Positions 4,267 to 60,900 of a DNA stretch of 64,000 nt are shown piece by piece. Every line of letters starts with the position of its first letter. The stretch's first letter is position 1. A program made the position numbers and the translations under genes. The notes beneath the pieces were generated by a model, which searched no databases, was not told where the DNA came from, and was given only the letters and a program-made list of their open reading frames with translations. The stretch spans positions 124,001-188,000 of the forward strand of contig JAKSYS010000031.1 of the NCBI GenBank assembly GCA_022925895.1, given 5' to 3'. The stretch is from Fragilaria crotonensis. Its lineage: Eukaryota; Bacillariophyta; Fragilariophyceae; Fragilariales; Fragilariaceae.

Positions 4267-4826
4267 GAATGCTAATTAATGTTGTTTATACTAATGCGCC
4301 GATGGGCTACCCAAACAACTTATTTCATGCATCAAGTCATTTATGGAGCGTTGAACAACAACAATGATGAGCAGGAAATTTTTCTCCGCGGATTTGTCGG
4401 GGATTCTCGAGTCCATTCACGGTTTTTTTCAGTAACACCTTCTTGGAGTACGGAGCGATTCCTATGAGAATATGACAACACAAGACGATCCATCATGAAA
4501 CTAACGGGCGAGTACTCCTGGACTTGTAGTTCCAATGGTACGAACTCCGCGGATATGCCACAGAAGCTGTGGATGCCATGGTTAAAATGCTTCCTAATGG
4601 CCTAAGCTACATGTGAGCTCTCCATACGAAATGAGGCACACTGTCAAATTAGTTCTCGCGGCTTCGGCACTATGAACAAGGAACAAAAAAATGCTAAGTT
4701 CTGATGCGCTCATACGTTTCTCGTAATTCTAACACATGTAATACACTTTTTAATTCAAAATGATTAAGTCAAGACGCCCTTTCACATGACTTCACTTCAT
4801 TGAATTCACTGGTTGTACCGGAAAGC
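4267..4826. other. Intergenic, nothing recognised
   Basis: Only short frames without family resemblance. It may contain more of the decayed gene to its left. Confidence 0.4.
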
Positions 4827-6291
4827 CTACGCGTTGGTGGATGTCAAACTGCGCTCCTTTCCTTCGCCCTTCACTTTAGGAGCTTTCTTATCTTTCTTCG
4901 CGCCCTTCTTCTTCGGAGGAGGAGGTGGAAGAGAGAGGGACAAGGAGTCACTCTCGACAGTGACTCGTTCCCAGAACTTCTTGTTTTCCTCATCCGGCGT
5001 GTTATCATGGGATGTCAAACTGCGCTCCTTTCCTTCGCCCTTCACTTTAGGAGCTTTCTTATCTTTCTTCGCGCCCTTCTTCGGAGGAGGAGGAGGTGGA
5101 AGAGAGAGGGACAAGGAGTCACTCTCGACAGTGACTCGTTCCCAGAACTTCTTGTTTTCCTCATCCGACGTGCTGTCATTTGATGTCAAACTGCGCTGCT
5201 TTCCTTCGCCCTTCACTTTAGGAGCTTTCTTATCTTTCTTCGCGCCCTTCTTCGGAGGAGGAGGAGGTGGAAGAGAGAGGGACAAGGAGTCACTCTCGAC
5301 AGTGACTCGTTCCCAGAACTTCTTGTTTTCCTCATCCGACGTGCTGTCATTTGATGTCAAACTGCGCTGCTTTCCTTCGCCCTTCACTTTAGGAGCTTTC
5401 TTATCTTTCTTCGCGCCCTTCTTCGGAGGAGGAGGAGGTGGAAGAGAGAGGGACAAGGAGTCACTCTCGACAGTGACTCGTTCCCAGAACTTCTTGTTTT
5501 CTTCATCCGGCGTGTTGTCATGGGATGTCAAACTGCGCTCCTTTCCTTCGCCCTTCACTTTAGGAGCTTTCTTATCTTTCTTCGCGCCCTTCTTCGGAGG
5601 AGGAGGAGGTGGAAGAGAGAGGGACAAGGAGTCACTCTCGACAGTGACTCGTTCCCAGAACTTCTTGTTTTCCTCATCCGGCGTGTTGTCATGGGATGTC
5701 AAACTGCGCTCCTTTCCTTCGCCCTTCACTTTAGGAGCTTTCTTATCTTTCTTCGCGCCCTTCTTCGGAGGAGGAGGAGGTGGAAGAGAGAGGGACAAAG
5801 TCACTCTCGACAGTGACTCGTTCCCAGAACTTCTTGTTTTCCTCATCCGGCGTGTTGTCATGGGATGTCAAACTGCGCTCCTTTCCTTCGCCCTTCACTT
5901 TAGGAGCTTTCTTATCTTTCTTCGCGCCCTTCTTCGGAGGAGGAGGAGGTGGAAGAGAGAGGGACAAGGAGTCACTCTCGACAGTGACTCGTTCCCAGAA
6001 CTTTTTGTTTTCCTCATCCGGCGTGTTGTCATGGGATGTCAAACTGCGCTCCTTTCCTTCGCCCTTCACTTTAGGAGCTTTCTTATCTTTCTTCGCGCCC
6101 TTCTTCTTCGGAGGCGGAGGTGGAAGAGAGAGGGACAAGGAGTCGCTCTCGACGGTGACTCGTTCCCAGAACTTTTTGTTTTCCACATCCGGCGTGTTGT
6201 CATTTACTCCCTCCGCCTTGCGGGCTCCTACCGTTAAGGTCGAAGACGCGACGAGGGTGAAAAAAACCCAACACAAGGAGCTGAATCTCAT
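4827..6291 (-). CDS. Secreted Lys/Pro/Ser tandem-repeat protein, silaffin-like candidate (frame broken once)
   Basis: The start is the ATG at 6291 (MRFSSLCWVFFTLVASSTL, a clear signal peptide ending near VGA). A short linker leads into eight 57-residue repeats, ending SLTSTNA and a stop at 4827. Each repeat has three parts: FWERVTVESDSLSLSL, then five or six prolines, then KKGAKKDKKAPKVKGEGK followed by RSLTS. Lysines in the basic block are spaced KxxKxxK twice, the pattern known from silaffin-type proteins of diatom silica, and serines are concentrated just before the prolines. These are similarities of composition, not homology. In repeat 3 the DNA lacks 2 bp relative to the other units (about 5796-5801 on the plus strand), which shifts the frame. 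The product would otherwise be about 490 aa. It may be a real null allele or an assembly error. Function is not known. Confidence 0.7.
4840..6205 (-). repeat. Eight-copy 171-bp coding tandem repeat
   Basis: The anchor GATGTCAAACTGCGC recurs at 4840, 5011, 5182, 5353, 5524, 5695, 5864 and 6035. All steps are 171 bp except one of 169. Units are nearly identical. The two outermost units share a KKK variant with one Pro fewer, while the six inner ones are KK with six Pro. Two neighbouring units share STSD and QRSLTSND variants. Because 171 is a multiple of three and lacks stops, long frames are also open on the opposite strand; I treat those as shadows. Confidence 0.95.
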
Positions 6292-15778: not shown

Positions 15779-17732
15779 CTACAGAACAAGTTCTTGGAGA
15801 TCAGTTCCCCCAATCTGCTTGGTCCATTTTTCAAGCTCGGTAGCCGCGCCCTTGGTACAAAGAGACACGACGGTGCCAGGATTAATCACCACGCCGCCCT
15901 CCTGGGAGTCTGACGTTGACGAACGGCCAACACGACCCGCGAGGTGGAGGTAAGACGCTGCGGACGATGGACGGCCCAGAACAAAGACAGCATCCACGGC
16001 GTCGAAGTGAAGACCACGGGCAGAACCTTCGAATGTAACCAAAAACGGAGGAGGCTCCTCTTGGTCGTCATCAACATCCTTGGCATTTTGTTCAAGACCA
16101 AGCGCGACATGGAGTGGCTACATGATACCAAACAAAGTGAGCGAGAACGATGACAATAGGAAACGAAGACTGTACAGCAAGTTTGCGCGAACGCTTCAAA
16201 ACATAAACCACAAGAGCACCTACCTGAGCCTCGATTCCGTAGCTTCCCAGAATATCGCACGTTTTGCGCGCAGATAAAACTGACTCGGCCGGAGCCAAAT
16301 TTGAGCCGCGAGACGTGGATGCCATCATGGCCATTGCCTTCTTGTCGATTTCCCGTTTGGAATTCCTACGCGCCTCACTAGTCTTGCCCTTTGGCAATGG
16401 CTTTGCAATTTCCTTGCTCTTGACGTTGGATTTGGCGAACTCCCCGCAAAGAAAGACAAGAGCGCTTCGAGGTTTCATCACAGCGGCGGCCTTGGCCACC
16501 GCCGCAAGGACAGCATCGGCGGAGGAGGCGGATTCCTTGGTGAGCGAAATATAGCGATGACTCACTTGCGACGGCACCGTCACAGCCCGAATCGTGTGCT
16601 GTTGCGCCACGGCCTCTCGCGCTTCGTCGTCCACCTCCTCCTCATCTTCGACGACTGAAGAAGGATTAATTTCGTCGACTTCTTCTTGAGGACGGCACAC
16701 AATCACATCCTTGGCCCAAATGGTTTCAAAATCTACATTTGCAGCTGCGCTTGCAGCTCGCATGGCTCGATTCAGGCGATCCAGAGTACGACGACTTGCA
16801 GTGGCGCTTCCCGCCAGAATTTGGGGAGGTGCGCTTCCTCCTGCGACGATTCGACTGGTGGCGATCAAACGGAGCAATCGTTCCGTGGGAACGACAATCT
16901 GCTTGTTATCCGATGTGAGTTCAGTACCGGCTCGTTTGGCGGCATTGAGTTTGCGAGTCAAAGCCAATTTTTGCTTTTCTTCTTGTTGTCGGCGTCGTTC
17001 CATATCTGCTGAATTACTGGGTTTTCGTGACTTCTCGCCCTTACTGTCTAGGCTGGTTCGAAAGACCTTGGGAGCCAAGGGAAGTAGTACATCAACTTCA
17101 TCTAAAACAATCGCACGCAAAGTATCGCCTGCCACGAACTCTCTTCCTCCCTTGACATTCGTCAATACATGTAACAGTTCCACAGGCGTTCCGATCAGTA
17201 CCGCCGCATTCGAAATGTCGGTGGGAGGCAGAATGCCCCGGACTGCCAATACGACAGCCTCCATGGCGGTGTCCGGGTCGTCGATTCCCAAAACCGCCAC
17301 GGTATCGCGCTGGAGCTGTGCCGCGAGTTCTCGCGTTGGTGCCACTACCAGAACCGTGCCGTCATGGAGAATAGCCTTTGTCAAGGCGGGAAGTAGGTAG
17401 GCCAAAGTTTTTCCAGATCCGGTCGGCGCAATCAAGAGCAAATTGTTATTGTCGGCGTTGGCACTGACGGCTGATGCGGATTGAATTGGAGTGGGAGATG
17501 AAAATCCAAGGCGGATCAGGGTTGGAGCCAAGGTGGGAAAGAGTAAAGGAAGAGTTTGCTCAGATTTAATCAGGGGTGTTGAGGCTTCGTCCACCACCGC
17601 TCTCATAAGTGGTGGTATTGACCGTTGTCCCTTACCAAGCAATGAAAGGGGAGAAAATGCAATGACACCAACGCCACTTGTGATGCTTATAACTAGGAAC
17701 ATGGACCATAGTATTTGCGACGAGAGCATCAT
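15779..17732 (-). CDS. Plastid-targeted DEAD-box RNA helicase, two exons
   Basis: ATP-dependent RNA helicase, probably of plastid ribosome or RNA metabolism. Exon 1 is 16224-17732 and exon 2 is 15779-16117. The 106-bp intron (GTAGGT...TAG) removes a frame break and joins motifs III and IV to V and VI, giving about 615 aa. Motifs by residue: Q (TPIQS, 81-85), I (APTGSGKT, 102-109), Ia (PTREL, 132-136), II (DEVD, 211-214, not DEAD), III (SAT, 309-311), then EGSARGLHFD (V) and HLAGRVGR (VI, first Arg replaced by Leu). About 85 charged residues are inserted between II and III, and an acidic linker follows III. The N-terminus has a hydrophobic signal and VIA/FSP, the stramenopile plastid-presequence pattern. 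It is divergent from the small plastid-type gene at 18106. Confidence 0.9.
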
Positions 17733-18105: not shown

Positions 18106-18611
18106 ATGACATTGACAATGAGCAAGACCTACTTGTTCCTACAACTCGCATTGCTCTTCACATGCGCCGTAGGCTTTGGACCGCATATTCAGGTCACACA
18201 CCAACGACAAGGACGCTCCCGATCATCATCAGCTCTATACAAGGCCATTTCGGAACAGGACGCCACTTACTTGTTGGCCAAGGCACAAGAATGTGCCTTT
18301 TCTGATTCAGCGACCGTGGAGGATGCTAAACAGTATTTGCGAGAATTGTTGCATATTCAAAGTGGATGCGTAGTGGGCACTATTGCGGGGCGCGACTTGT
18401 GCGACAATCAAGACCTTTATGCAGACATTGTCGGACGACTGCAAGCCAAAGTCGACGAAAAGTCACATGGCAGCATTGCGAGGAAGGAGCCATAGAAACA
18501 AGAGACCATGACATGGAGGAAGCCATTGAAGCGGCGGCTGAAAATCAGTTTGTGGGTCCTGTTACTGAGAAGTTGTGTTACGTGTTCGACTTATGTATTC
18601 AGATCGCCTAA
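18106..18611 (+). CDS. Small plastid-type protein, unknown function (one frame disruption)
   Basis: The ATG at 18106 opens MTLTMSKTYLFLQLALLF, a signal peptide ending CAVG/FGP, again with F after the predicted cleavage. A soluble helical domain follows, containing DATYLLAKAQECAFSDSATV and IQSGCVVGTIAGRDLCDN. The first frame stops at 18495. A second frame carries on with matching character (EEGAIETRDHDMEEAIEAAA to a stop at 18611). One extra A in the run at 18458-18461 would join them, so this is either a 1-bp deletion or a sequence error. Family not recognised. It is transcribed away from the helicase, with 373 bp between start codons. Confidence 0.6.
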
Positions 18612-22588: not shown

Positions 22589-25500
22589 GAAGCAGGATGA
22601 ACGGTTTGGCCAAGATATTTCGAAAAAATCGTACTCATCCCCTTGACATTTATTTCACATTTTGAATACGCCATTCGACAGATCTCAATTAGCCCTTTCC
22701 AAAACTGTTTCATATTTAAAAATCGGATAAGCATATTCCACAGAATTTCCATTCCCGCAAATCCTCCCATATCTGCCCAAATTGGCCAAGCTGAATCAAT
22801 TGTACCACGGTGATTTTACTAGTAAAATGAGGGTACTGTGTACTGTGCTGCAAGCACATTGACTCGGCCACTAATGTTCACATATTATTGCATTTTTGGA
22901 TAGACCAGGTCCAGCTCTAAAACAAAGCAGCTGGATGATTGTCAACAAAGATCGAACTTGTGGAGAAATATGCATTTTAAAGAGAGCAGTCTATGAGCAA
23001 CTAGTGCTGCTACTAGTAGTACTAGTTAGTGCCCTTCATCTCCCGTAGTAACGGCACCAGCACCTGCGGGTAAATCCGCGGGCTGTCTCACCACAAGGTA
23101 CTTGGCAACCTCTCTAATCAGATCCACCTTCTTCATAGATGCTATGCCCTTCAACTTGATATTGTAGTAGTACTTGAGGATCTCTTTTAGCACCTTTCCA
23201 GAGAGTGCATTCAGGCTCGACACATTTTCTTCGCCCGTTTCGAACTTTTCCATCAACGGAATTAGGTACCCCATCACTTCCAGCCTACGTGTTTTCTCAG
23301 AGCATTCCACTGTTTGTTTCTTGTTAGCCTTCCTCAATGCCTGTGCTGCTGTGGCTTCTTTCTTACGTTTTCTATCGTCCTCTTTATCCCTTGTGATTTC
23401 TGCAACTGCTGCCGCAAGTGCGTTTACTTCCTTGATTTGCTCCAGGCGGGCGCTTGAATTCAGGAGGCGACTGTAGCTCCCAACATTTCCATCCAAAGCA
23501 TCAATACGTCGCTTTGCAATTAGCTTTGTTGCGCCGGGTCCCATCGTGTCTTTTAGAATAAACCCCATCACAACATTTTTGTGTGTCGGCTTCAATAGCT
23601 TTATTTGATCAGCCTTGACGTCAACGTCAAGATATGCTGAGGGCACCAGATTTGCGTCGCTTGATGATGCTGCACGTGCAACAAAGTTGGTGATATGGTG
23701 GAAATAGGCTTTTTGGTTTTCGGCGTTGTGTCGTGATGATGTGTATTTTGTCAAGAGGTCCCGGGGTCTCCACGAGCAAACCAGATCAATCTTGGACTGT
23801 TGGTGCTGTTCCTGCGGATATTCTTGCTCCTCCTCCACAGCAGGGCAGTTGGGCACGGTCAGTGAAACCTCCTCATCCTTTCTCGACTGAACAGTCAGCA
23901 TGTCATCGTCGTAGACAAATACAGATGGATCAATCTTTGCGGCAAGGTAAGAAGAGCGAAGCTTACCAACATCCCCGATAGGGACATATTTTACGAGCTG
24001 CAAAACATTACCTTTGGTCCAGATAGGAACATCTTCAAACTCGCTGCTGGAATAAAAACCATCGATGAGTGCAACAACATTGTGTCGGTCTTCAACTGAG
24101 AGCTTCTTCCAAACAGCAGGCATTGCATCAAACAGACTGGTTCTGTTTGAAAAGAATTTCCGAGGAGTCAGCTTTCCATCTATTTTCCTTAACCACAAGT
24201 CAAAAGACATCCGGAATCGGGGATGAAGGTTCACTTTGATGAATGATTCTATCCATGCAGATGGCTGTACTCGCTTCAAAGCTTCAATCGCGATTGTGAT
24301 AAGATACCACTGATCTAAACGCGTGCCGATATGGGGACGAATCAAGTCCAGGTTTGCTCGCATCCCTGCTTTATCATTCTTTGCAACCGACTGATCATAA
24401 GCCTGATTAATGTGCGAGGTGTCGCCTTCTTCTTTCAGGATCAGGATCTTGCGCTTGTAGAACACTTCTTGCGCCTGATGAACATTCACGTGACTTCCAA
24501 ATCCGTCAAGGCTTACCACAACCCACCAAGATGGATGCTCACAAATGAATGGCATCTTTCGTATACCATCAGCAAGCTCAGGTGCAATATCCGCATACAC
24601 GCAATCGGTCATGTATGCTGATGGTGTCATGTAAACCTTTGAGTTCGGAGGGACACCATCTCTCTTACTAATATTTTTTAAAGCTCGGCAAGTAAGCTCC
24701 TTTCCAGCTGCGAGGAAGATCCATGGCCCAGAGCTACCACCTGCAGCACCTGTGCGGAGAACAGTCACAGATGCACGACAGTCACTCATTATCTTCTCAG
24801 TTTTTGATTTGCATGATGCACCAATAACCCTCACAGTACCATCGCTTCCCAACAAGCATGATTCATCCATGTTGCAGAAGAAATGCTCTTTAACTTGTTC
24901 AAACTCGTCAGCTGGAAGGTTTAGGCGTATCTGCTCTGATAATGCAAAATCAACTGATGTGTGCCATCGAAGCTGTTGTTCCATTGTTATTTGGGTACGC
25001 TTGGTCGTTGTCTTCTGGCATGTCACAACTTTTCCACCTCTCTTCAACCCATCTAGATACCCTGCACGAACAAGATAGTCAAAGTGGTTCTTGGCCTGAG
25101 TTCGTGATGTGCATTGTGCAAGCTCCATAATTGTTGTGATCATTTCCGATCGAGTCATGCCATTATTCCGCAAATCACGGCTGATTGCTATGTCTGACAG
25201 GAATTTCCTGTCGCTTTCACTCAATAAAGGGGTTGAGCTAGCCGTCACTCCAGAGAAGACCATCTCCCGAGTCACATTTGGGAGTGAGACACCATTTGAT
25301 TTTGCCGCCAACTCAAATTTTGTTTGGTACCAACTCACTGTTGACCTAGCGACTTGCACATTGGCTACCACTTCGGAGGACCGTATATTTGGGCCCGCAC
25401 ATGCATTCACCACCGCAGTCTTGAGTGTGTCAAATATTTCATCAGTACTGTTCCACTTGTTGTATGTTCCTTGTTCTCGCATTCGCTTTGGATCACATTG

Positions 25501-26000
25501 AGGTACAAGAGTGCCAGGAGCTGCACGCTTCGTAGTATACCCGGCGGTACTAGCACTCGCAGTGGTACGAGCATGCGCGGTACTTGGAGTAGTACTAGTG
25601 GTACTTGTCTTCTCGATCTGCTTGTCTCCTTCCTTGGGCCGACCCCTCGGCAGCTTTGCAAACCATCCGCGAATATCACCCTTATCCTTTGCATCGGCAA
25701 TCTGCTTTCTCGTTGTGAGCTTCGGATGATATACATCCTTCTTCTTGCGGCATGTCGAAGCACGCAACATGATGATTTGGCAAAACCCGAAATATGACGC
25801 GCGTCGACGACTGAAAGTTCAGTTTTATTGCAGATATGAATAGCTGAGGCTTAGAGCTATTCATAGACAACGTTACATTTATTGTAAAATCAAAATTGAA
25901 TAAGTAATTAAATATATAAATTCTAAAGGAGTTTCTACGGGGTATGTACCGGAGCACGGATGCCAAAACTGTCAGCTGTCAAATTGATTCATCCTGCTTC
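22589..26000 (-). mobile_element. pogo/mariner-like DNA transposon inside the copia LTR
   Basis: TIR GAAGCAGGATGAA at 22589-22601 and its complement at 25988-26000, flanked by the TA duplication at 22587-22588 and 26001-26002. The empty site is visible in the other LTR (CGTTAGTCGATT), which proves the ends. It is 3,412 bp and carries one long transposase gene on the minus strand. TA duplication and a DDD-type nuclease place it in the Tc1/mariner-pogo group. Appears autonomous and recent. Confidence 0.92.
23026..25770 (-). CDS. DDE/DDD transposase with AT-hook and SAP domain
   Basis: 914 aa, uninterrupted, ATG at 25770. N-terminal AT-hook-like PRGRPKEG (about 41-48), Ser/Thr-rich linker, helix-turn-helix-like region (about 105-240), then the nuclease core: CNMDES (Asp302), VVSLDGFGSH (Asp422) and HINQAYDQSVAKND (Asp459). 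The layout matches the DDE superfamily endonucleases of pogo/jerky type, where the third acid sits in a QPLD-like motif. A charged Lys/Glu coiled region follows (about 790-830). Near residues 857-892 there is a SAP/HeH-like DNA-binding motif (LSGKVLKEILKYYYNIKLKG ... DLIREVAKYL). The C-terminal SAP addition is not typical of well-known pogo transposases (from memory). It is the only gene of its element. Confidence 0.88.
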   Translation of the reverse strand: MLRASTCRKKKDVYHPKLTTRKQIADAKDKGDIRGWFAKLPRGRPKEGDKQIEKTSTTSTTPSTAHARTTASASTAGYTTKRAAPGTLVPQCDPKRMREQGTYNKWNSTDEIFDTLKTAVVNACAGPNIRSSEVVANVQVARSTVSWYQTKFELAAKSNGVSLPNVTREMVFSGVTASSTPLLSESDRKFLSDIAISRDLRNNGMTRSEMITTIMELAQCTSRTQAKNHFDYLVRAGYLDGLKRGGKVVTCQKTTTKRTQITMEQQLRWHTSVDFALSEQIRLNLPADEFEQVKEHFFCNMDESCLLGSDGTVRVIGASCKSKTEKIMSDCRASVTVLRTGAAGGSSGPWIFLAAGKELTCRALKNISKRDGVPPNSKVYMTPSAYMTDCVYADIAPELADGIRKMPFICEHPSWWVVVSLDGFGSHVNVHQAQEVFYKRKILILKEEGDTSHINQAYDQSVAKNDKAGMRANLDLIRPHIGTRLDQWYLITIAIEALKRVQPSAWIESFIKVNLHPRFRMSFDLWLRKIDGKLTPRKFFSNRTSLFDAMPAVWKKLSVEDRHNVVALIDGFYSSSEFEDVPIWTKGNVLQLVKYVPIGDVGKLRSSYLAAKIDPSVFVYDDDMLTVQSRKDEEVSLTVPNCPAVEEEQEYPQEQHQQSKIDLVCSWRPRDLLTKYTSSRHNAENQKAYFHHITNFVARAASSSDANLVPSAYLDVDVKADQIKLLKPTHKNVVMGFILKDTMGPGATKLIAKRRIDALDGNVGSYSRLLNSSARLEQIKEVNALAAAVAEITRDKEDDRKRKKEATAAQALRKANKKQTVECSEKTRRLEVMGYLIPLMEKFETGEENVSSLNALSGKVLKEILKYYYNIKLKGIASMKKVDLIREVAKYLVVRQPADLPAGAGAVTTGDEGH

Positions 26001-26232: not shown

Positions 26233-29200
26233 TCAAGTGTAGTCGGCGAGGTCATGGAGAATTAGACCGACAAGGTGGTCTCGTTTGCGTCCTCCGGCGA
26301 TTATCTTTGTGCATATATCGGCAGGATTCTCATGCGTAGAGACATGTCCCGTCAAACATTCGCCCATTGCGACAGCTTCTCGAATGGCATGATAACAAAT
26401 AGAATTCGATTTCTTCTTAAGGACGGATTCCGGGCGCTGGGTATTGTGGATCACGGACATGTTGTCTCCATATATATAAGACGGTCCAGAGATACTCACA
26501 CCCATCATTCGTAATTTATAACGCAGTCCACGTAGACATTCCATCCCTTGCTTCATAGCCACAAACTCAGCACCAAATACGCTGGTTTCGATGGTCGATT
26601 GTTTCTTTGAGTACCAGATAATTGGTGCCATATTCAAATATATAAGGTATCCAGTCCGTGAGCGTCGGGCACGTTTATCACCTGCGTGGTCCGAATCAAC
26701 GAACATACGGAGGTCGACGTCCTTTCCACGCGGTGGTGGTGCGTTTGGGGGAATCGCTTCACTGACGTCCCCATAAAACGATTTCCAATCATATCCATCC
26801 TTGAAAATAGAAAGGTCAATATCGGGGTAGCTCGGATCGAAGACAATCCTCGCATTGTGTCGTTTCTCAAGGTGATTGAAGATATGGAACACAGCATCGA
26901 GGTGTCCCTCGCGTGGCATTGCAAGGAACGATGACAGTTCGGAGACTTCAGTAATGATGTCAATCCGACCGAGTTCCACTATCCATCGTAAAACACCAAT
27001 TTGTGTCTGATAGAACGTTGACGCTGCGGCGTCCAGAAGCTCCGACGTATCAAGCTCTGGTGCATAATCCAGAGGGAATGGTCCCGAAGTCCGCTTCTGC
27101 CATTTCCTCGTCGGATAATGTTCGACGTGATATGCCTTTACATTGGCGACCGCTGCTTGGATGTATTTACTGGAACTCATACTCCATGCAACAACGCCGT
27201 TAGCAAGAGTCATCGGTCGAAGTTTGGCGCCCAAGTAGAAGTCTGGGTCACCTATCGAACCATCTTTTGTTTTGAAGAAATGATCGATCTCCCTGAGTGC
27301 TTTGACTCCGTCGTGATGTACCATGAGTATATCGTCAACGTACAGTAGACAATACGCATAGTACTGGAAGTTATCCTCGTGTCGAACTTCAGGCTTGAAC
27401 CATAAGTCGTGATCAGCCTTACATGACTCCCAACCGAGGTGACGCATGCAATCTGCGAGATGATTCCGAAAGGAAGCACCCGCAGACTTAAGTCCGTATA
27501 ACGCACGAACAATGATTGCTTGCTTACCGGCATTGCTTCCAAATTCGGGTCCGAGTCGACACCAAATTTTCTCACCTATCGGGGCGGTCAGATACGCGTT
27601 TTCAATATCTGCGGTCTTGACTTCAAGGTCATTTAGGGCTGCAAGAGTGAGAGCAATGCGAACAGACTCTCTCGACACAACGCTTGCGTACGTGACGGTC
27701 GATGAGGTAATTTCTGTCATATGCCCACCTGCAACGAGTCGCGCCTTTCGCTGGAAATTTTCCATTTTTACATCGAAAATCATATGACAGCGCATCTGTT
27801 GGAACGTCGGCGGAGGGGACTCGTTGTCTTCAAGTATCTTGAAAGCAACTATCACCTTGTTCATCTCCTTTCGTATTGCGTCCTGCCATAGCGTATTGCC
27901 GTTTGTCTTATCGATCCTAACGCAATCGTCGTAAGTTTTGGGTATTTCGATACCGAACTTGTGTGTGCGTTTGTGGTATCGGCTATTGACAGCGGCAATA
28001 ATACGGTTTCTCCGGCGTAACGTATGTGGGACCCACCACGCGAAGGCAGGTTCGCCATCAATTCCGTGGAGTACAGCATAATCGGCCACTTCCACAGGAT
28101 TCGACTCTTTTAGACTAACCAACCGTTCCCAGGACGTACTACCATCTTTCCATTCCACGCAGAAACTCCAGCCTTTCGTCGTCTTTCGTAATTGGCGGTT
28201 GGAGCCTCGTTGAATGTACATGTCGGAGCGTTCGACGGCATCGGAGTCGCGTCTATGATCAACAATGCCAGCGAGGAGAAGGTATTGATTCCCTTCACTA
28301 TCGCATTGTGCGTACATGTTTTGGGCGATGACATTCGCCGCGAGTTCAGCTGTCTGACCATCTGCAAACTCAACCTCGTATGTACGAGTGTCAAGGATCG
28401 GGTTCGCGTTAGATTTCCCGAGTAGGGTTCCGTCCAATTGCCGCTTCCGACCGCGGACTTTCGCGTTCATCACTCTGTCCCCTATCGGCAACTGAACTTC
28501 CGCACCCACATATTGATCGTACGTATCGGCGTCTGGCTCTTCGTCGGCCTCGGGTAGGACCTGGGCTTCGTCACCATCATTGTCGGCGTATGGCTCATGC
28601 AACGGTGTGCCAAGGTCCTCGAGCTCGGGGTCATTCACAAAGTCTTCAAACTTGAAGGAATCACCAAGTGCCTTTTCGACCGACTCAGTGAATTTCTCCT
28701 TCTCCCTCTTCATTGCGTCGTCTGCAATTTCATCCGGCGTTAACGATCGCACTGTCGAGCGATACACCACTTGACCGTTTGATTTCAGGATCTTCCGTGT
28801 CATCGCCGGGCCAATGTCGATTGCGGGCCCGAGGTCGCGGCCCAAAATCATTGCATCGTCGGGGTAGGTGACGGATGTATCCCTGAAAAGGATCCATTCG
28901 TACCACTTAAAAGCAGCAAAAGGCGAGATGTCCGCCGTCTCACCGCTAACAATTGTCTCCGGAACTTGTCCGTCAAGGCGATAGATGTCATGAGCAGTCA
29001 TGGAGCGAACGTACGATTCGCGTTCCAGACAGTCGTCCCATAACCTCTTCGGAGCTTTCGATCGTACCATCTGGCGACCGACGCCCCTCTTCAATTCCCG
29101 TATTGCTGCTTCGGCAGCATTTGACCACGGAGTATAGGGTTCAGTCTGTTTGACTCGAGCCCCCGCTTCACGGCATTTTCGTCGAAATAGTCCCATGGTC

Positions 29201-30351
29201 TGCTCTTTCGCCCCGTCCATTATCAATGTGTTCGGGACTCCGTCGCGCTGGAATAATAATGATAATCCTTCATGTGCCTGCGATTTCGTTACCATTGGAT
29301 ATGCGCGGCACCATCCATCAGGCGTCGCAAAGATCTGGGCACACTTGTTGTTCCTGCGAGATGGTGTATTCGCAAACAGGGTGTCTGTAAAACAATCAAT
29401 CGGGAGTCGTCGATACCTTAACTGTCGGTCATTTGTTCGAAACCGTCGCGACAGTGTGGGGTGAAGCACGGTGCGAATGCCTCTTTGTGTCGTGACGTTG
29501 ACCGTACGAGTTGCGGTTCGTATATCAATGCCCCAATTGGCCGCCAGGACCTGCGGTGTCAGGTTCGGTCCAGCCGAGGTGGAGCGAAGTGATGAGACGT
29601 TCTTGTGTAATAACCTGACAAAACCAAGTTCATCATGTGCGGACGAGATTTGGTTGAGGGAAAGTATTACCCTGTCAAAATGCGTGGCCGGCGGAATTTT
29701 GGAGACCAAGCAGAGACGATTTGACGGAGATACAATCCCTGCTCCGATCCGGTCCCCTGTCTCCAATATTGCTCTGGCTAGAACGTTCTCGTGATCCGCA
29801 AGAGACTGGTCGTGTGGATCATACGGTGGATCCTCACTCGTAAGAACGAGGTGAGGTAGTGTCTCGTATTCTTCAATGGTTGGCTTGCGTGTTGGGAAGG
29901 AAGAAGCCACGCCATGGAGTGTCATCGGAATGACATACGGAGTGTCGGGTTCCTCTTCGGTAGGAATTAGCAGCGAATGCGTCAACAGCGTTGGCTTATC
30001 AGTAAGGAAACGAGGGACGTCGTTTACCACTACGTCATTCAGCCGTAGTTGCATTGTAGACAGCAGATTGTGCTGAAGATTCGGTAAGTGGATCGCTTGG
30101 TGGATCACAAGAATTACCGATTCACCCGTTGTTGCATTGTCGTATGCGAGGGCCGCAGTGACCGTGCGTAGGTTGTTTTGCGTCGGTCCATTCGGATCGT
30201 AACCGGAAACGTTGATCGGGCGTTCGAAATCGTGAACTATTAAAACGTTGTTACCTACCGCACATTGATCGGCGTGCGAATCTAGGTCGGTTCGGGTCTC
30301 GGTAACGGTTATGTCGATGGAACCGAGTGTCCTTAGGACCGAGAGAGACAT
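26233..30351 (-). CDS. copia Pol polyprotein
   Basis: 1,372 codons, long and open. Domain order by eye: aspartic protease (DLDSHADQCAVG, near the N-terminus, with DSHA where DSGA is common), integrase core (PIDCFTDT, LIMDGAKEQ, PWSNAAEAAIRELK), a chromodomain-like segment (FCVEWKDGSTSWERLVSLKE), reverse transcriptase (CLLYVDDILMVHH) and RNase H (MFVDSDHAGD ... ENPADICTK). Protease-integrase-RT-RNase H order is that of Ty1/copia. The usual HHCC zinc finger before the integrase core is not obvious. Confidence 0.92.
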   Translation of the reverse strand: MSLSVLRTLGSIDITVTETRTDLDSHADQCAVGNNVLIVHDFERPINVSGYDPNGPTQNNLRTVTAALAYDNATTGESVILVIHQAIHLPNLQHNLLSTMQLRLNDVVVNDVPRFLTDKPTLLTHSLLIPTEEEPDTPYVIPMTLHGVASSFPTRKPTIEEYETLPHLVLTSEDPPYDPHDQSLADHENVLARAILETGDRIGAGIVSPSNRLCLVSKIPPATHFDRVILSLNQISSAHDELGFVRLLHKNVSSLRSTSAGPNLTPQVLAANWGIDIRTATRTVNVTTQRGIRTVLHPTLSRRFRTNDRQLRYRRLPIDCFTDTLFANTPSRRNNKCAQIFATPDGWCRAYPMVTKSQAHEGLSLLFQRDGVPNTLIMDGAKEQTMGLFRRKCREAGARVKQTEPYTPWSNAAEAAIRELKRGVGRQMVRSKAPKRLWDDCLERESYVRSMTAHDIYRLDGQVPETIVSGETADISPFAAFKWYEWILFRDTSVTYPDDAMILGRDLGPAIDIGPAMTRKILKSNGQVVYRSTVRSLTPDEIADDAMKREKEKFTESVEKALGDSFKFEDFVNDPELEDLGTPLHEPYADNDGDEAQVLPEADEEPDADTYDQYVGAEVQLPIGDRVMNAKVRGRKRQLDGTLLGKSNANPILDTRTYEVEFADGQTAELAANVIAQNMYAQCDSEGNQYLLLAGIVDHRRDSDAVERSDMYIQRGSNRQLRKTTKGWSFCVEWKDGSTSWERLVSLKESNPVEVADYAVLHGIDGEPAFAWWVPHTLRRRNRIIAAVNSRYHKRTHKFGIEIPKTYDDCVRIDKTNGNTLWQDAIRKEMNKVIVAFKILEDNESPPPTFQQMRCHMIFDVKMENFQRKARLVAGGHMTEITSSTVTYASVVSRESVRIALTLAALNDLEVKTADIENAYLTAPIGEKIWCRLGPEFGSNAGKQAIIVRALYGLKSAGASFRNHLADCMRHLGWESCKADHDLWFKPEVRHEDNFQYYAYCLLYVDDILMVHHDGVKALREIDHFFKTKDGSIGDPDFYLGAKLRPMTLANGVVAWSMSSSKYIQAAVANVKAYHVEHYPTRKWQKRTSGPFPLDYAPELDTSELLDAAASTFYQTQIGVLRWIVELGRIDIITEVSELSSFLAMPREGHLDAVFHIFNHLEKRHNARIVFDPSYPDIDLSIFKDGYDWKSFYGDVSEAIPPNAPPPRGKDVDLRMFVDSDHAGDKRARRSRTGYLIYLNMAPIIWYSKKQSTIETSVFGAEFVAMKQGMECLRGLRYKLRMMGVSISGPSYIYGDNMSVIHNTQRPESVLKKKSNSICYHAIREAVAMGECLTGHVSTHENPADICTKIIAGGRKRDHLVGLILHDLADYT

Positions 30352-30381
30352 ACAATGACAGTGCGAGTCTGTGCACTGTCG

Positions 30382-31911
30382 TCACTTACTAGTAGATGCC
30401 TTCTTTGGCTGACGTGTTAAAGCCGCATTGCTGCGGTTGCCCTTGGTGGGCGACCTTCCGGCTCCTTTCTTGGGTGTCGCATCGGAGGAAGAGTCACTTG
30501 ATTTAGCTGTAGACCCGTCTCCCTCCTCGTTTTGCGCAATTTGTTTGGTGAGCTGAGCAACACCGCGTTTGACAGCCTTAAGGTTCTTGATTACGTCGGC
30601 GGAGTCGCCTTTGGATTTACCGTCAGAGCTGCCGCGTTTGACTACCTTGCTATCTCGAGCTCCGGGCTTATGCCCACGTTTGAGACGCTTGGCCGCGAGA
30701 CTTTTCTTCTGTTCGGTAGAAAGGGCGTCGTATTCAGACTTCGTGTAGTAGCGGTCCTCAATGGCATCGGACTTGCGCTTGGATCCGCCTCCACTTGTCT
30801 TGATTTCGGCAATGCCGACGGTAGGGTTCCCTTTGGACTTCGACGTTTGCTTAATGAAATCCTGATAGAGGGTTACACAAGCATCAAAATCGTTACGCAG
30901 AGTTGCATCCGACATGATTCGAGTCTTCACGGAATCGAATTTATCAGTCTTGATCCCGTCGAGCAGGAATCGAACCTTTGAGCGAGGGTCAATCCCCGTG
31001 TATCCATGTTCCACCAATCCTTCCATGATGGAATGCTGGGTCTTGTGAACATTGACGTACTTTTCAAAATCCCATCTGCGTTGTTCTCCGTGGTAGACAG
31101 TGGTTTTCAACTTGTCTTCGGCCATCGTGGCCATATTGTCCACGTTGTTTGGTCCAAGGAAGTGCATATAAAGCCCTTCATAGGCCAGTCGGCCATCGCG
31201 AGTACGTTGTGCTGGTTTCACGTATGTCCAGCACGCCTGATCGCGGGTGATTTTGGCAATGATCTCCCAGACCCTTTCACGATTCGTGATATATGTCGGG
31301 TCGGGAATCTTAGAGTCATCGGCCCTGAGGGTGTAATGTTTCGCGCGGGAAATCATTTCATCCTGAACGGTCGCGTATCCCATTTCAGGGTCAACAGTTG
31401 GAACTTCTTCGTTCTTTCTAACAACGTATGCCAGCGGGATTTTATGGTCCCCTAAGTGCGAACGCAAATACTCAAGGATGGTCTCCATCGTCTTGGGCCA
31501 ATCCTTTGCGTTAATGGTCGGGGGTTCATCGGTCGGGGCCTTGTAAGTCGTCTCATATTCGCGAAGTTCACGAAACTGTCGGATGGACTCCAAGGTAATG
31601 TTGGCAACTGCGACGTCACGACTTACGCGGTCTTGATGTCGGAGATAAAATGCCAGAAGCTTAAGATGATTCTCAGCTCGAAGGTTAACGGGGGTCCCCG
31701 GATTGATAACGGGTGCAGCTCCGGGGACTGCGGCGGGGATCGTGCCGCCAGGGCGACGGATGACGTTACAAAGGCTCTCAATCTCTACATCCGTCAAGAG
31801 CTTGATCTCGTCGAGTGTATCGAGCCCCTGTTCATCCACAATGACTTGGGACGCGGCGGCGGTAAAACCAATCCGGGTAAACATCGTGCGCATGGCTACT
31901 TGAGCGGCCAT
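30382..31911 (-). CDS. copia Gag
   Basis: 509 codons from an ATG at 31911. Helical N-terminal half and a basic C-terminal tail rich in Lys, Ser and Gly, fitting nucleic-acid binding. No CCHC knuckle is visible. Identity rests on position between the 5' leader and Pol rather than on sequence motifs. Confidence 0.75.
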   Translation of the reverse strand: MAAQVAMRTMFTRIGFTAAASQVIVDEQGLDTLDEIKLLTDVEIESLCNVIRRPGGTIPAAVPGAAPVINPGTPVNLRAENHLKLLAFYLRHQDRVSRDVAVANITLESIRQFRELREYETTYKAPTDEPPTINAKDWPKTMETILEYLRSHLGDHKIPLAYVVRKNEEVPTVDPEMGYATVQDEMISRAKHYTLRADDSKIPDPTYITNRERVWEIIAKITRDQACWTYVKPAQRTRDGRLAYEGLYMHFLGPNNVDNMATMAEDKLKTTVYHGEQRRWDFEKYVNVHKTQHSIMEGLVEHGYTGIDPRSKVRFLLDGIKTDKFDSVKTRIMSDATLRNDFDACVTLYQDFIKQTSKSKGNPTVGIAEIKTSGGGSKRKSDAIEDRYYTKSEYDALSTEQKKSLAAKRLKRGHKPGARDSKVVKRGSSDGKSKGDSADVIKNLKAVKRGVAQLTKQIAQNEEGDGSTAKSSDSSSDATPKKGAGRSPTKGNRSNAALTRQPKKASTSK

Positions 31912-34995: not shown

Positions 34996-35910
34996 ATGAC
35001 ATCTCGAGGATATCTGATATCGATTGTTGCGATACTGCTGATATGCCCAACCCCCGTTTTGGGCTTCACGACGTTACCTGCCTTTGCTCAACGCGCAAGC
35101 ACAATAGCATCCACAGCGGCAACAGCAAAGGTCACGACTGCCTCAAGTATTCGTAGTGCCACCAGTACCACCTCGAACCTGCTACACTACGCGACAACGC
35201 CATCAACGTCATTACCGGCATCGTCCTCATCTGATATCCTACAACGGCGAAAAGTGCTTCTGAGTCGAACCGGACCATATTTTCGAGTGGACTCCTCTAC
35301 AGGCGACGTGGAATTTGGTGCCACTGTCAACCTCACGACCAAACTAGATGACGGAAGTGTTACAAACAGCGTCATTATTGCAGAATGGCTGTCGGATGAA
35401 AAGCGTGTAGCCAAGGCCATTTGGGACGAATCGTTATTACTCGCCAAGGGAAATTCGGTTTATCAATTGCAGCTCATGACGTTGCAATTCGTTACGCTCC
35501 AGCTCCATCCCAGCGTCACTATCAAAATGTGGAGTTCCGTTCGTCCCAAAGACGGGTCTCCCGTGTTTTATTTGCAATCTGTCGGATTCGAACCCAACCT
35601 TTCTCTTCTCGGTGGAGGACTCGGCAAAGTCGACGCCAAAACATTGGGACTCGAGATTGATGTTGTGGGACAATTGGCACCCTCGTCTTCGGAACAAGGT
35701 GGCGTCAAGGGAAAAATTACCTTTTCAACTCGCGGTGTTCTGCCTCCACCCTTACGCATCCTGCCAGAAGGTATATTGCAGGCTGCATCGGATCGCATTT
35801 GTCAAACCGTGGCAGATTTTGCCATTGCATCGTTCCAAACCGGTGCACGGGATTCCTATCAAGATTTCAAAATGACACGGAATGATCTTGAGCAAAAAGT
35901 GGTATTGTAG
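34996..35910 (+). CDS. Plastid-targeted DUF1997-like protein
   Basis: 304 aa from the ATG at 34996. N-terminal signal peptide (LISIVAILLICPTPVLG) followed by FTT and a Ser/Thr-rich transit-type region up to about residue 80, the bipartite plastid signal of stramenopiles. The mature part has beta-rich segments typical of DUF1997: FEPNLSLLGG and, near the C-terminus, LPPPLRILPEGILQAASDRI, which matches the family's PPPLRLLP signature. DUF1997 proteins occur in cyanobacteria and plastids; their function is unknown to me. It converges with the metallo-beta-lactamase gene (187 bp between stops). TTTTATATT about 17 bp before the ATG could be a TATA-like element or leader sequence. Confidence 0.8.
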   Translation: MTSRGYLISIVAILLICPTPVLGFTTLPAFAQRASTIASTAATAKVTTASSIRSATSTTSNLLHYATTPSTSLPASSSSDILQRRKVLLSRTGPYFRVDSSTGDVEFGATVNLTTKLDDGSVTNSVIIAEWLSDEKRVAKAIWDESLLLAKGNSVYQLQLMTLQFVTLQLHPSVTIKMWSSVRPKDGSPVFYLQSVGFEPNLSLLGGGLGKVDAKTLGLEIDVVGQLAPSSSEQGGVKGKITFSTRGVLPPPLRILPEGILQAASDRICQTVADFAIASFQTGARDSYQDFKMTRNDLEQKVVL

Positions 35911-36097: not shown

Positions 36098-37523
36098 CTA
36101 CAAGTACTTGCCCTTCTTCAAAACTCCAACAATAACCCGTCGTACGCCAAAGAAATGTCCCAAGTCTTTGTAGTGTTCTTGCAAGTACGCGTTCATCTCG
36201 TCATGTGGTGGGAAGGAATCGCAGCTCATACCCACCAGTAGCGTCTTTTTGGCACCGAGTTCTTTCGCCAAGGCTACTGCTTGACGGAGATTGAAATGAA
36301 CCGGATGAATCTTGTCGTCCATCAATAACGTATCGACAATGAATATATCAGTCGGAGGTAGTTGAGTTTGAATGTAATGCAACGTTTCCTCCTTCATGCG
36401 TGAAATGTCAGATAGGTACACAATATTCTTGGTGGGAGCGGCAGTTGTTGCGTTTGTTTCATCCCTCTTTTCGTTGTCATTGTCCAATGATAATGGCAAC
36501 GAAAATGCAAACCCCAAACAAATTAAATCATCCCCATGCCATACGGGCAATGCGGTCACTTTCAATCCATACACGTCAAAGGTTTCAAAATCACTAATGA
36601 CATTCACCTTCAGGGCCGCAACATCTCGGTGCACGATAACGCCACCACAAACATGATCGGTGACCTTTTTTGTCAATGCCTTTGTCAATACCCATCACGT
36701 CAGGACTAGTTCTCGTTTTGGCGTAATTCGGAACAAGCCACGGAAATTGTTTCGCCACTTGATCCCAACATTCATGAGATGCATAAATGGGAATCGGAAT
36801 CCGAATGGGTGGTGACGCTACATCTCTTGTTGTTGTTGCACTGTCATGTGACGTTTTGAGTGGAGGTGCAGTTCGTTGAAAGCCTCGCAAATCGTCCAAT
36901 CCCGCCACAGCATCCATATGATGGTGCGTCAACAAGACGGCATCCAAACTTTGAATGGCATATCGTGGCATCCATCTGATTGCTGTCTCACGGAATGTTT
37001 TACCCACGTCAATGACAACGTTGCGCCGGACAGATGTGTCCCTGTTCACAGGTTCGACAAATTGAATCAAGAGCGAAGGGTTATTGCGATAATTCTTATT
37101 GTTGCGAGGATCCCCTTGCATGGCCAATCGTGATGTTCGACAGGCTGATGCATAAGCTAATTGATCTTGGCGAAGAGTGTCAGTCCAATCGGGATTTCGT
37201 GATCTGTCGCTGGTGCCGACGCCTTGTTCTGGAAACAACAAGGAACACAAGGGTTTCGGACATCCAGTTGAAGATCCCGATCCGAGAAAGAGAAGTTTAC
37301 TTCCCGCACTGCTACTACTGGTAGGACTATTCGCGAAACGTGGTGGTTGCGGTGCAGATGTGGATATGATTCTGGAATTGGACGCGAAGGAATCTGTGGT
37401 CGTTGTCGTCGTGGATTCTCCTACTGGTGCCTCCGATGCTGAAGCAAATGGTCGGTGATACCAAGCCACTGCAGCAACGGCAACGGATGCTGTGGGAGAA
37501 AATCGACGCAGTATGTTGTTCAT
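36098..37523 (-). CDS. Metallo-beta-lactamase-fold hydrolase (one frame disruption)
   Basis: Zn-dependent hydrolase of the eukaryotic group with the THxHxDA signature, related to PhnP-type phosphodiesterases. The likely start is the ATG at 37523 (MNNILRRFSPTASVAVAAVA, mitochondrial-looking); the frame extends upstream but overlaps duplicated non-coding sequence. Motifs: FLGSGSSTGCPKPLC, LLTHHHMDAVAGLDDLRGFQ with the metal-binding His/His/Asp, LPVWHGDD (later His) and IVDTLL (bridging Asp). The first frame ends at about 36594 and a second carries on to 36098. They meet at a run of six A on the coding strand (36666-36671); five A would keep one frame. This is a real indel or a homopolymer error. 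Confidence 0.78.
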
Positions 37524-37616
37524 AGCCTGTGATTGAATGGAAAGGAATAGAACGGCATGGAACAGTGGAGTGCTACCGGTAAACTTCGTGTTGTTGTCGA
37601 ATCTAATCCTTGGGCC

Positions 37617-37710
37617 AATGAAACGTGGGAAGTGTGGAGCATCAAGCGTCACTGCCACATTTGATTCTTGCATGCCCTTGCTGTACGAGTTAAGTACTTT
37701 AGTATGAGTA
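37617..37710. repeat. Segmental duplication copy A, left part
   Basis: GTGTGGAGCATCA ... TTGATTCTTGCATGCCCTTG ... GAGTATAT corresponds to 43862-43965. It lies just upstream of the hydrolase start codon. Confidence 0.75.
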
Positions 37711-44926: not shown

Positions 44927-46966
44927 CTAAACTCGGAAGTTGGGATTCAGAGTCCCATCCTTCTTATCCCTCTTAAGTCCATTAATGATGTTGGTCACTG
45001 AAGTCTGACCGCCATAGACAGCATAAATCTTGTCAATGGCAGTCTCTGCCGTGTCACCTTGCCGAATCAGTTGTCCCACCAAATCCCACACCACCTTTCG
45101 GCGGTGGTACCGATGCTTTGAGCAACCTCGCTCAGAGTAGGAGAACAGTCTAGCTGCTTTCCTCCCACCGACACCATGATGATACTCTTGCCAGAGGTCG
45201 TGAAGACTTCTGGGCGTCGGCATCAGCGTCGCCATCATTGCGAGGTCGTTCGCAGCAGCTCGTTCGGGTACCTCCGCTGCGCCTTCGTCGTCTCCTCTCC
45301 CCCCACCAGCAGTCCGTCGTCTCGCAGGTTGCAATGCAATTTGCCTCATGCTACCATTCAAAATGCCAAAGCACCGCTCCAGATTCACCTTGATTATGTT
45401 AATCGCTGTTTTGAGCTCCAAGTTGTCTTGTTGTAGTGAGAGTAAACCTGATTGCATTCCCAGCAACTGATTTCGAATTGCCACATTGTTTGTCCCGGGC
45501 ACACCGCCATGTTGTCCAGCAACTCCGTCAACTTCAATTGTCCCAACCATGTCAATAAACACTGCTCCATGATCGCCCGACACTGTCACTGCCATCTTCT
45601 TGATTGGATTAAACTCGGCATCATAGTCAGCACCACGAACATGCTCCCATTCCAAAAGTACATCTCGTTTGAAATCATTCGGAATATACTCGTCAGCAAC
45701 TGGCGAGCAAATCAGCCACAACAAAGCCTTACCAAGTACAAGACAAGCGGAATCAGGGAGTCGCTTCCTGATATTCGGAACGACGTGACTCAGGACAAAT
45801 GTGTTCATCATCGTCGCGTCGAGTGCGGGATCTGACACATAAAAGCAAGGACCACCACCACACAACTTCTCAGCAACCTTTGCGTCTGGGTAAGGAAGTT
45901 CAACGTCATCATACATGTCTGATACTCTACCTGATCCCTTCCATCGGCCTCTGATATCCTTCTCATCCTTGGTCACTCCACATCTTTGCGCGAACGTAGC
46001 GGCATACTTTCGAATACTGTGACTTCCCAGCATGGACACTTCACCTCCTCCCCTTTCGGCACCTTGTTGTTTGCCTCTGAATTCCTCACGCCTGAACAGG
46101 ACAGTAAATGCAGCTTGAATCATTGCCTTAGACTTAAGTCCGCCTTCAGGAACACGTACGTCGTCGCTGATACCAAAAACGTACGGCGAATTCATTGCTG
46201 TCGGATTTAATTTCAGATTCAACTCAAGCCACAAAGCAAGTGAGCAAAGAACACAATACACAGGATTTAGAGAACCAAGCACAATTTGCCACGGTGCATC
46301 TCATTTGTCATCCACATTTTTGGACCAGTTCAACCTTGTTTTCAGAGCGCTCGCAAACGTGTCATGTACTTGAATGTGTTCCAATACTAGTTGCATTGAG
46401 CGAGCGAGTCATCCACCCGAGCTATCAAATGAAATTGAAAGTTTGTCATCGCCAATATACCATACCTTTTCCAGAAAACATCATGTGCATTATCGCTCCT
46501 ACGGCCTGCAGATAGAACATTACGATTCAAAAGGTCATGCATAGCAACAAATTCCTGACCTAACATTGGACGTCGAGTTTGCAAATCCACCCCTTGTTTT
46601 CTCGCCTCCTTCTTCTTGACACGCTTGATGAGGGCATTCACCAGCGCACTGCGGGTAGGGTTTCCTTTACTTCTAGTCATACTCCACGTGTCGCGATTCG
46701 GCATGAAAAACGAAATTGCTTTTTTGTCCATTGCCAACGAGTTTGCTCGTGCCGAAATTGAGTTTGCATCCCCCTGCCGGCTCCGTTGTCCCAAACACCT
46801 TCATATTAAGATACCTTGACACATCACTTGGGGTAATAGCAGCCAACAATTCCATTGCATGCACATGATCATGAGAATACTCACTTCCAACTGCTCGGTT
46901 GTGAACAAACAACATGAATGAAGCAAGAATACATTTGTACTTATTCAGAGTTTTGGTGTCAACCAT
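44927..46966 (-). pseudogene. Crypton-like tyrosine recombinase, decayed
   Basis: Minus strand, start probably ATG at 46966 (MVDTKTLNKYKCILASFMLF). The N-terminal core-binding region continues as KKAISFFMPNRDTWSM and GNPTRSALVNALIKRVKKKE in a second frame, then LARxDD-type IARVDDSLAQ. A third stretch (about 46380-46290) reads RLNWSKNVDDK, an in-frame TGA, then DAPWQIVLGSLNP. The last 1.3 kb is one open frame with the catalytic HSIRK (HxxR), RGRWKG and the candidate Tyr in MYDDVELPYPD, plus a Leu/Gln-rich helix. R-H-R-Y recombinase without terminal repeats fits Crypton DNA transposons. At least two frame changes and one stop; introns might explain some. Confidence 0.72.
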
Positions 46967-47416
46967 GATAAGAACAGTACTCTTGTTTTGTGGGGCGAAT
47001 GTACTACAAACACGTAGAAGAGTACCTCGGGAAAAAAGTTGCATTCGTTCCATATACGAAGGACGTAAGTATACCGTAGGTGCAACAGATGTTGCAGATC
47101 CCAAAATGCTGGTACTATCGTTTGCAGTTGATATGCCCCACGCAAACGCACGAAAAACGTCATCAAGTACCCCTATTACGCAACGTAGTACCAGTTCTAA
47201 TTAATCCGCAAGATCCCTGGATTCCTATTGGATAGTACAACACCGGTTGCATTTCCGAAGTTATACTACAGTACAAGGTACTCGGAGTACTGCAGATTGA
47301 AAACTCCGAATTAACGGTCAATATCTTCTAGTTGAATTTACCGTTGTAGGGTTAATGTCAGTACCTGGGACATGTACAGTACCTGGTACTATGATAGAAA
47401 GTAGTGCGGAGTGGTC
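46967..47416. other. Spacer between two tyrosine-recombinase elements
   Basis: No gene seen. GTAC-rich; TTAACGGTCAA and TTTACCGTTG form a weak inverted pair at about 47313-47345. The border of either element is not visible. Confidence 0.4.
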
Positions 47417-57995: not shown

Positions 57996-60900
57996 AAATA
58001 TACATTTGTCATAGTTTGATAAACCATCAATTCAATCACCAACTCATTAAATACTTTGATTTTTATACATTTAAATCTTAATACAAATTATTTATGCGTA
58101 GATATCACTTTTTAATGTTGAAAGGGGCCATAATTTTAACCATAAACAGTCATTATTGACTACAACTATATCAACTCACTTTTTGCCACCTTGTGATGGA
58201 ATTGGACAACCTCCAAGGGTGATGATGTAGCCGGTGCGGGACTTGGCGCTGGTGTCAGAATGATCAGGGTCACAACCATGGAGTCCAGCAAAGTCAGCAT
58301 CAACATAGCAATCAAGAGAGAGGTCTCCAGTTGGGAGTCACAACAGTTCCTTTGTCAGCAGTACGATGCAAGTAGCGGACAATGCGTTTGATTGCAATGG
58401 CATGGCTCTTCTTGGGAGAATGATTGAACCTGGCAACTTGACTTACTGCAAATGTGATGTCTGGTCTTGTGTTTGTTGACAAGTACAAGAGCATTCCAAC
58501 AATGGAGCGGTAGTTCCAGAACTCATCCATGGGTTCTCCATCAGGGTCAATCCCAAGGCATGCTTGCAAAGCAGGGATGTGGTTGGAGTTGCAGTCTTGA
58601 AGTCCTGTTGCCTTTATGATCTTCTGGATCAAACCCTTTTGTGTTAGGGTGACAGTGTTGGCAACGTCATCCTTGACAAACTTGATTCCAAGAAAGTCAG
58701 TGAAGGTGCCTTCACAAGTGAACTCCAAACCCAAATCAGTAAGATCCTGGAACAGTTTGTCAAGATCCTTCTTGTTGGAGTAGGCAATCCCAAGATCATC
58801 AACATGGAGAACAATCATGATGGTCTTGCTGTACAAGAGGCATGAGTCTGTGGCACTCTGCTTCAATCCTTGGAGGAGGAGTGCTTCACGAATGTGTTGA
58901 TACCAAAGGCGGGGAGCAACCGAGAGACCGTAGAGGCTCTTAACAAGTTGTAGGCAGGTCCTTTGGTCGCTTGATTGATCGGACTTGAAGCCTCTTGGCA
59001 TGTGGATCCAGACTGGGTCAGTTAGGTTGGCTTGGACAAAGGCACTGCTGAAGTCAATGGAGCAAGTTTGCCATCCCAATGTTAGGGACAAGACAAGGAA
59101 CAATCGAACTGAACTCCAAGCAACAACTGGGGCATAGGTTTCAGGTTCTCCTTCTTCAAGGTTGCCTCAAACACAGTAGCGCGCTTTGTACTTGGTGACT
59201 TCTCCATCTGGGGATCGCTTGCGCCAAAATACCCAAGTCCCTGGGAGAATCTTGGTCTTGGCTTCAAGGATACTGACTTCCTTCCAAGTCCCATTATTCT
59301 CAAGGCTTGCCACTTCCTTAGCAGCTGCCTCCATCCACTTGGTCACATGCTCAATGTCAGCCATAGCTTGGTCAAAGCTCAGAGTGTCAGGATCAGATGC
59401 AGCTGCCTTGAAGGCAGTTGGGGAAAGGATGATTCCATTTTCCTCAAAGATCCAAGCACTTGGAGAGGCAAAGTATCCATGGCCTTGAGTGTTATCATAT
59501 CCAAGGCGTTGTGGTGCTGCGCGAATGCGGTTGGACCGGCGCGGAGACGTTGGTGGCGGAGGCGACTTGACTGGTTGCTCGTCACGTGGTGAGTCAAGGG
59601 CGAATGCATTGTCTGGAACAGGACTCTCCCTCGTTTCAGACATTGGGGTCTGCTCCCGGGAGAAGATTGGCTGATGAACTGGGGAGATCGGGGTAGCTGG
59701 GACCTTGCGTGGCGTCTCTTCCTTGGCTTGTGAGCTGGAGTGTGGACGGCGTTGCAGAGGTGAAGTTCTGATGTCTGGCGTTGGAGGAGACTGGAGAGAC
59801 CGAGGATCGATAGACTGCTCCCTCGTTTGAGACATCATGGGAGTTGGAGGCCTTGGAGTGAGCAATGGAGAACTTGGCAATGGCTGTGGAACAGTTGGTG
59901 TCCTGGGTGGAGCCTCAGCCAAGGGAGGAACTGGGAGTTGTTCAATTGCAACAGCTTCATCCATGGAGGCAGCAACTCTTGTTTGGTTCTCATTGATGGC
60001 TTCTGTAGCTTGGGAGTCCATTCGCGCTTCCTCTGTGGCATTGTTGTCGTCGTCATCGAATGGGAACTGATATCTTGAGTGGCCAAACAAACGGGCCCAA
60101 CGCGTTGTATTAAAATCCGGGAGGGCATCCACATTGGTAGCCACTGTTGCAAACCAGTCATCAAACACAATGTGATATTGGGGAGTGATGTACCCTGTCT
60201 CTGGATTCAAAACCAAGGGGACTGTGCTTACATGTTTCTTGGAGAGCCCCATGTTAACACAGCGGATGGACCGAGGCTTCCAGCGAGGCAGCTTCTTTCC
60301 ATCTGCAATGGTCTTCTCAAGAGCATACACAGGACATCCCCACACATGCAGATCATGATACTTCCTTTGCTCCCATCTGGACTTGGTGAAGACATCACTT
60401 GGACAGAGACCTGTTGCCAAATCAGGAACATGGTTGTGGAGGAAGATAGCATGGGAGACTGCCATTGGCCAAAGTGTTGCATCAGCCACATCTGGCCAAT
60501 GTACTGCTGAATGGAGCATCATTGTCCGAGCGATTGACATGATCGTTTGGATTGCCCTCTCAGCATGGCCATTGTGATGGTGAGCTCCAACTCCAGCAAA
60601 CTTGACAACTTGCTTCAGAGTTCCAAGGTGCTCAGTGAACTTAGCTGAGGTGAAGCTCCCACCATTGTCAGAGAGATAGGATTGTGGAATGACTCCACTG
60701 TCCCTTGCCATCAACTCAAAGTTCTGCTTGGCCTTCAAGTCTCATGAGTGTTCAGATGCTTCTGAAACTCAACATGCACAAAGTTGGAAGCATGATCAAT
60801 GAAGAGGCAGCCTCCAGCGAACATGTCTGAGTTCAGACTCCTTCCAGCTGAAGAGAAGAGCCTTCCCTTTGTTCCACAAATGAAGTGATCAATGGAGACT

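Follow-up and report, generated by a model that had tools for sequence, protein, structure and literature searches.

We found, on the minus strand of a 64,000-nucleotide window (the whole stretch of DNA analysed here), a tandem array of eight near-identical units that is probably the gene for a secreted protein rich in lysine and proline. Our leading explanation, to which we would give almost an even chance, is that this locus codes, or did so until very recently, for a disordered, lineage-specific repeat protein that an alga with a red-lineage secondary plastid, probably a diatom, secretes into its wall or its extracellular matrix. As sequenced, a 171-bp unit (57 codons) is present eight times in tandem, with 97% matches, at positions 4839-6203, and read on the minus strand units 1 to 8 extend from 6207 to 4842. 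A 20-base piece of the repeat unit occurs eight times, compared with no occurrence in 100 shuffles, and the array is thus not a chance match. No second copy of it was found elsewhere in the 64,000-nucleotide window. The locus contains the following features:

6223-6291, minus strand: signal-peptide-like N-terminus MRFSSLCWVFFTLVASSTLTVGA, with the start ATG at 6291 and a hydropathy peak of 2.14 at residues 5-16
6208-6222, minus strand: linker RKAEG, joining the signal peptide to the array
6037-6207, minus strand: repeat unit 1, an outer unit of the PPPPPKKKG form
5866-6036, minus strand: repeat unit 2
5697-5865, minus strand: repeat unit 3, 169 bp, its frame broken by the loss of two bases near 5798; apart from this, identical to unit 4
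5526-5696, minus strand: repeat unit 4
5355-5525, minus strand: repeat unit 5, KQRSL variant
5184-5354, minus strand: repeat unit 6, SNDSTSD and KQRSL variants
5013-5183, minus strand: repeat unit 7, SNDSTSD variant
4842-5012, minus strand: repeat unit 8, an outer unit of the PPPPPKKKG form
4827-4841, minus strand: C-terminal end STNA with the stop codon, ending 15 nucleotides past the array
5743-6291, minus strand: signal-peptide open reading frame as sequenced (182 amino acids), consisting of the signal peptide, units 1 and 2, part of unit 3 and an out-of-frame tail

Each intact unit (SHDNTPDEENKKFWERVTVESDSLSLSLPPPPPPKKGAKKDKKAPKVKGEGKERSLT) consists of an acidic, serine-containing block, a proline block and a lysine block, just as an earlier note on this DNA had described, and the KxxK spacing mentioned there is present as KGAK, KKDK, KDKK and KAPK. 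Serine accounts for 10.5% of the unit, which includes a single tryptophan and no tyrosine. The two outermost units (1 and 8) carry the PPPPPKKKG form and the inner units the PPPPPPKKG form, while the 5/6 and the 6/7 junction have the KQRSLTSNDSTSD variant in common. This distribution of outer and inner forms, together with the shared junction variant, is the expected trace of homogenisation and of a one-unit duplication by unequal crossing-over. Judged from these variants, the array is recently homogenised, and the active repeat turnover that had been proposed from the near-identity of the units is thereby borne out.

A long open frame alone is weak evidence for coding in such an array, since at least one open frame was present in 76% of dinucleotide-shuffled 171-bp units; in the real unit, three of the six frames are open. 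The array could accordingly be read as a non-coding minisatellite of 171-bp monomers with accidental open frames, which would also tolerate the frame-breaking indel in unit 3. We consider this improbable, because a signal-peptide-like start and a stop lie in frame near the array edges, six of the seven unit spacings are exact multiples of three, the composition is strongly biased towards lysine, proline and serine, and the open plus-strand frame with its DVKLRSF repeat has no ATG start. A plus-strand gene at 4813-6237, where that frame is open, is disfavoured for the same lack of an ATG. The codon-composition score was highest in the minus-strand frame among all six (0.216), and synonymous codon choice alone does not tell the frames apart (0.02). 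Seven of the 14 substitutions are synonymous in the minus frame and none creates a stop, a mild excess in favour of coding that is not significant (P 0.085); plus-strand frame 1 likewise has 7 of 14 (P 0.105).

The probable gene begins with the ATG at 6291, which shares its frame with units 1 and 2 and lies 84 nucleotides ahead of unit 1. The signal peptide reported in the earlier note is supported by the sequence, as MRFSSLCWVFFTLVASSTLTVGA directly follows this ATG and combines a hydrophobic core, an arginine at position 2 and a V-G-A cleavage context (by a rule-based test, not SignalP). The same rule picked out 13 (1.4%) of the window's 913 ATG frames. The protein is thus probably a product of the secretory pathway. 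The short STNA-stop end includes neither a C-terminal membrane segment nor an ER-retention signal, and plastid targeting of the repeat protein was ruled out, as the cleavage site has no phenylalanine.

The signal peptide was previously thought to be followed by eight 57-residue repeats; the eight units stand, whereas a continuous frame through them does not. In unit 3 (5865-5697), CTCCTTG is shortened to CTTTG near 5798, and this 2-base deletion leaves the unit at 169 bp, so that the signal-peptide frame stops early and units 4-8 lie in another frame. A single continuous eight-repeat open reading frame at 4827-6291 is therefore ruled out for the given sequence. The signal-peptide frame ends at 5743 after 182 amino acids, or about 2.4 units followed by the foreign tail DFVPLSSTSSSSEEGREER, and only a different frame is open across units 4-8, running to the stop at 4827. 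A scan for introns of the type GT[AG]...[CT]AG with lengths of 50-400 nucleotides revealed none that restores the frame across the deletion. Long repeat open reading frames thus need to be checked unit by unit for such breaks.

The deletion, which is present in the given sequence and which no simple intron repairs, may be real, and the locus would then be a recently broken allele or pseudogene with at most a 182-amino-acid product that contains two complete repeats. This seems to us unlikely, although it is the most serious of the competing possibilities: unit 3 matches unit 4 in all other bases, no further lesion was seen, and another conserved gene of the window is split in a way that fits sequence error. 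This second gene, which has a metallo-beta-lactamase fold and is located about 30 kb from the array (36098-37673, minus strand), matches the Lactamase_B_2 profile at positions 1-60 in the open reading frame 36594-37673 and at positions 64-199 in the overlapping frame 36098-36694, with the break near a run of six A. Sequence error, a lesion or an unrecognised intron are all possible causes of this split. As a second conserved gene is also affected, a sequence error is favoured for the deletion in unit 3 as well, and it is plausible that the frame break in the array arose in sequencing or assembly; failing that, the lesion would be very recent. For a DEAD-box gene of the window, which is likewise split, an intron is the likelier cause.

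Relatives of the protein were found in none of the collections searched (Pfam, PHROGs, NCBIfam, PDB, IMG/VR, GTDB genomes and phage records). Algal genomes are few or absent in these, and absence from them therefore does not show novelty; conservation lends the proposed function no support. Family membership would have called for a score above the curated cut-off (Pfam, NCBIfam) or a credible match (PHROGs); only short, low-complexity matches below threshold appeared in these three databases. Among them, the Pfam matches to Adeno_shaft and HTH_92 (about 1e-5, below cut-off, 12 residues) were dismissed as low-complexity chance. Searches for tRNA and Rfam families gave no match. An AlphaFold model of units 4-8, built from the single sequence, had a mean pLDDT of 48, which fits disorder and decides nothing.

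A disordered protein secreted into the matrix is the most likely reading, judged from the missing plastid phenylalanine, the lack of a membrane segment at the C-terminus and the low confidence of the model. In the mature protein, zwitterionic blocks of 57 residues would follow one another in a disordered array, each with an acidic, serine-containing head, a stiff proline stretch, a lysine cluster and the tripeptide R-S-L. The protein would most likely be imported into the ER, be exported to the wall or matrix outside the cell and bind anionic matrix, phosphate or silica through its lysine clusters. Cleavage at each RSL, which would free near-identical peptides, is also possible.

KKGAKKDKKAPKVK is a dense cluster with eight lysines in 14 residues, and only 0.7% of shuffled units contain one this dense; the clustering therefore exceeds what composition would produce, in agreement with the Lys-rich blocks named in the earlier note. 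R-S-L, which the earlier note had missed, ends every intact unit (7 of 7) and fits RXL, the motif at which the wall precursors of diatoms are proposed to be cut (PMC4557024). Since 14% of shuffled units contain an RXL by chance, and since RSL counts as one event among units that are copies of each other, we regard this tripeptide as a lead and not as proof.

A narrower form of the matrix-protein reading is a silaffin-like biosilica precursor. Such a protein would enter the silica deposition vesicle, its lysines would be modified and its serines phosphorylated, and cutting at RXL would release peptides that aid silica formation. In line with known biosilica proteins, the predicted protein has a signal peptide, tandem repeats, RSL in each intact unit and a lysine cluster of the pentalysine kind. 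The pentalysine cluster of silaffins has been described as five lysines interspaced within 12-14 amino acids (PMC9650480), which KKGAKKDKKAPKVK matches loosely, though several of its lysines are adjacent. A host that has a red-lineage plastid and is probably a diatom also agrees with this form. The ASAFAP-like motif marks nuclear-encoded plastid proteins in algae with red-lineage secondary plastids (PMC4329603), and three predicted proteins of the window carry bipartite signals of this kind (GVIAFSP at 16092-17732, PVLGFTT at 34996-35910 and AVGFGP at 18106-18495), which points to such a host.

Two published screens nevertheless argue against silaffin membership. The composition screen of Scheffel et al. 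asks for a signal peptide as well as serine of 18% or more and lysine of 10% or more per 100 amino acids (PMC3478156); here, the protein passes on its signal peptide (by the rule-based test) and on lysine, which reaches up to 23%, and fails on serine, with at most 15-16% per 100 amino acids, and no 100-residue segment combines both. A second screen for silaffin-like proteins uses repeated KXXK with X = S or G (PMC5501833), and this motif is absent from the unit. Moreover, silicanin-1 has an RXL soon after its signal peptide, while the first RSL of this protein (residues 82-84) lies only where unit 1 ends. As the protein falls short in both screens, we do not claim membership among the silaffins, though it may still work like a precursor of the wall or of the silica matrix; a silaffin-like precursor appears to us doubtful, a little more so than a broken allele. 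The earlier statement that the locus combines "exactly" the features of silaffins was too strong, given a serine content below 18%, the missing KXXK with X = S or G and the broken frame.

The combination of a signal peptide with near-identical cationic repeats would also suit a secreted precursor from which repeated bioactive peptides, either pheromone-like or antimicrobial, are cut. KR and RR kexin sites are absent from the unit, however, and no relative was found, which makes this the least probable of the explanations considered, with only a very slim chance.

A further form of the matrix-protein reading, which we consider distinctly unlikely though less so than a minisatellite, is a new type of biosilica or cell-wall polyprotein. 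Each 57-residue block would unite an acidic, phosphorylatable head, a rigid proline spacer and a lysine-cluster tail, and RXL cutting would release up to eight near-identical zwitterionic peptides, whose copy number would shift by unequal crossing-over. If true, a precursor with separate acidic, proline and lysine blocks would show how such proteins originate and spread by repeat expansion. Its 57-residue unit could readily be made on its own and tested for silica binding.

The window furthermore contains several candidate mobile elements. Copia-type retrotransposon open frames with an RVT_2 reverse transcriptase are located at 26233-31911 and at 58312-62563 (minus strand), and a separate open reading frame upstream in the element at 26233-31911 may be gag; Copia-type reverse transcriptases occur in diatoms (PMC2806351). 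At 44927-49465 (minus strand), an open reading frame with a GCR1_C domain lies near one with a weak, sub-threshold Phage_integrase match, possibly representing a tyrosine-recombinase mobile element. Nested inverted repeats at 468-2727 (468-497/2698-2727, 93%, and 1389-1442/2633-2686, 85%) perhaps belong to a non-autonomous element. A 914-amino-acid open reading frame at 23026-25770 (minus strand) had no Pfam match.

What defines silica-wall proteins is often their composition and their motifs and not homology, and many of them are lineage-specific. The predicted matrix protein resembles several of them in its architecture. The silaffin precursor Sil1p of Cylindrotheca fusiformis likewise combines a signal peptide with tandem Lys-rich repeats and RXL-type tripeptides at the repeat ends (PMC4557024). 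Likened by description and not by sequence, the unit found here is longer (57 amino acids), includes proline and acidic blocks, and has less serine and no KXXK with X = S or G. In the cingulins of Thalassiosira pseudonana, which are repetitive, Lys-rich regions alternate with other blocks as they do in our array (PMC4557024, PMC9650480). Their lysines are spaced by S and G, whereas those of the array are spaced by G, A, D, P, V and E, and although the tryptophan in each unit is a further likeness to cingulins, the unit has only this one and no tyrosine. Thaps3_24597, a T. pseudonana gene of the silaffin cluster with an expression link to silica, encodes 53-amino-acid repeats with lysine motifs (PMC3478156). 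Its 18.7% serine, mostly in KSSK, contrasts with 10.5% and no KSSK in the unit described here.
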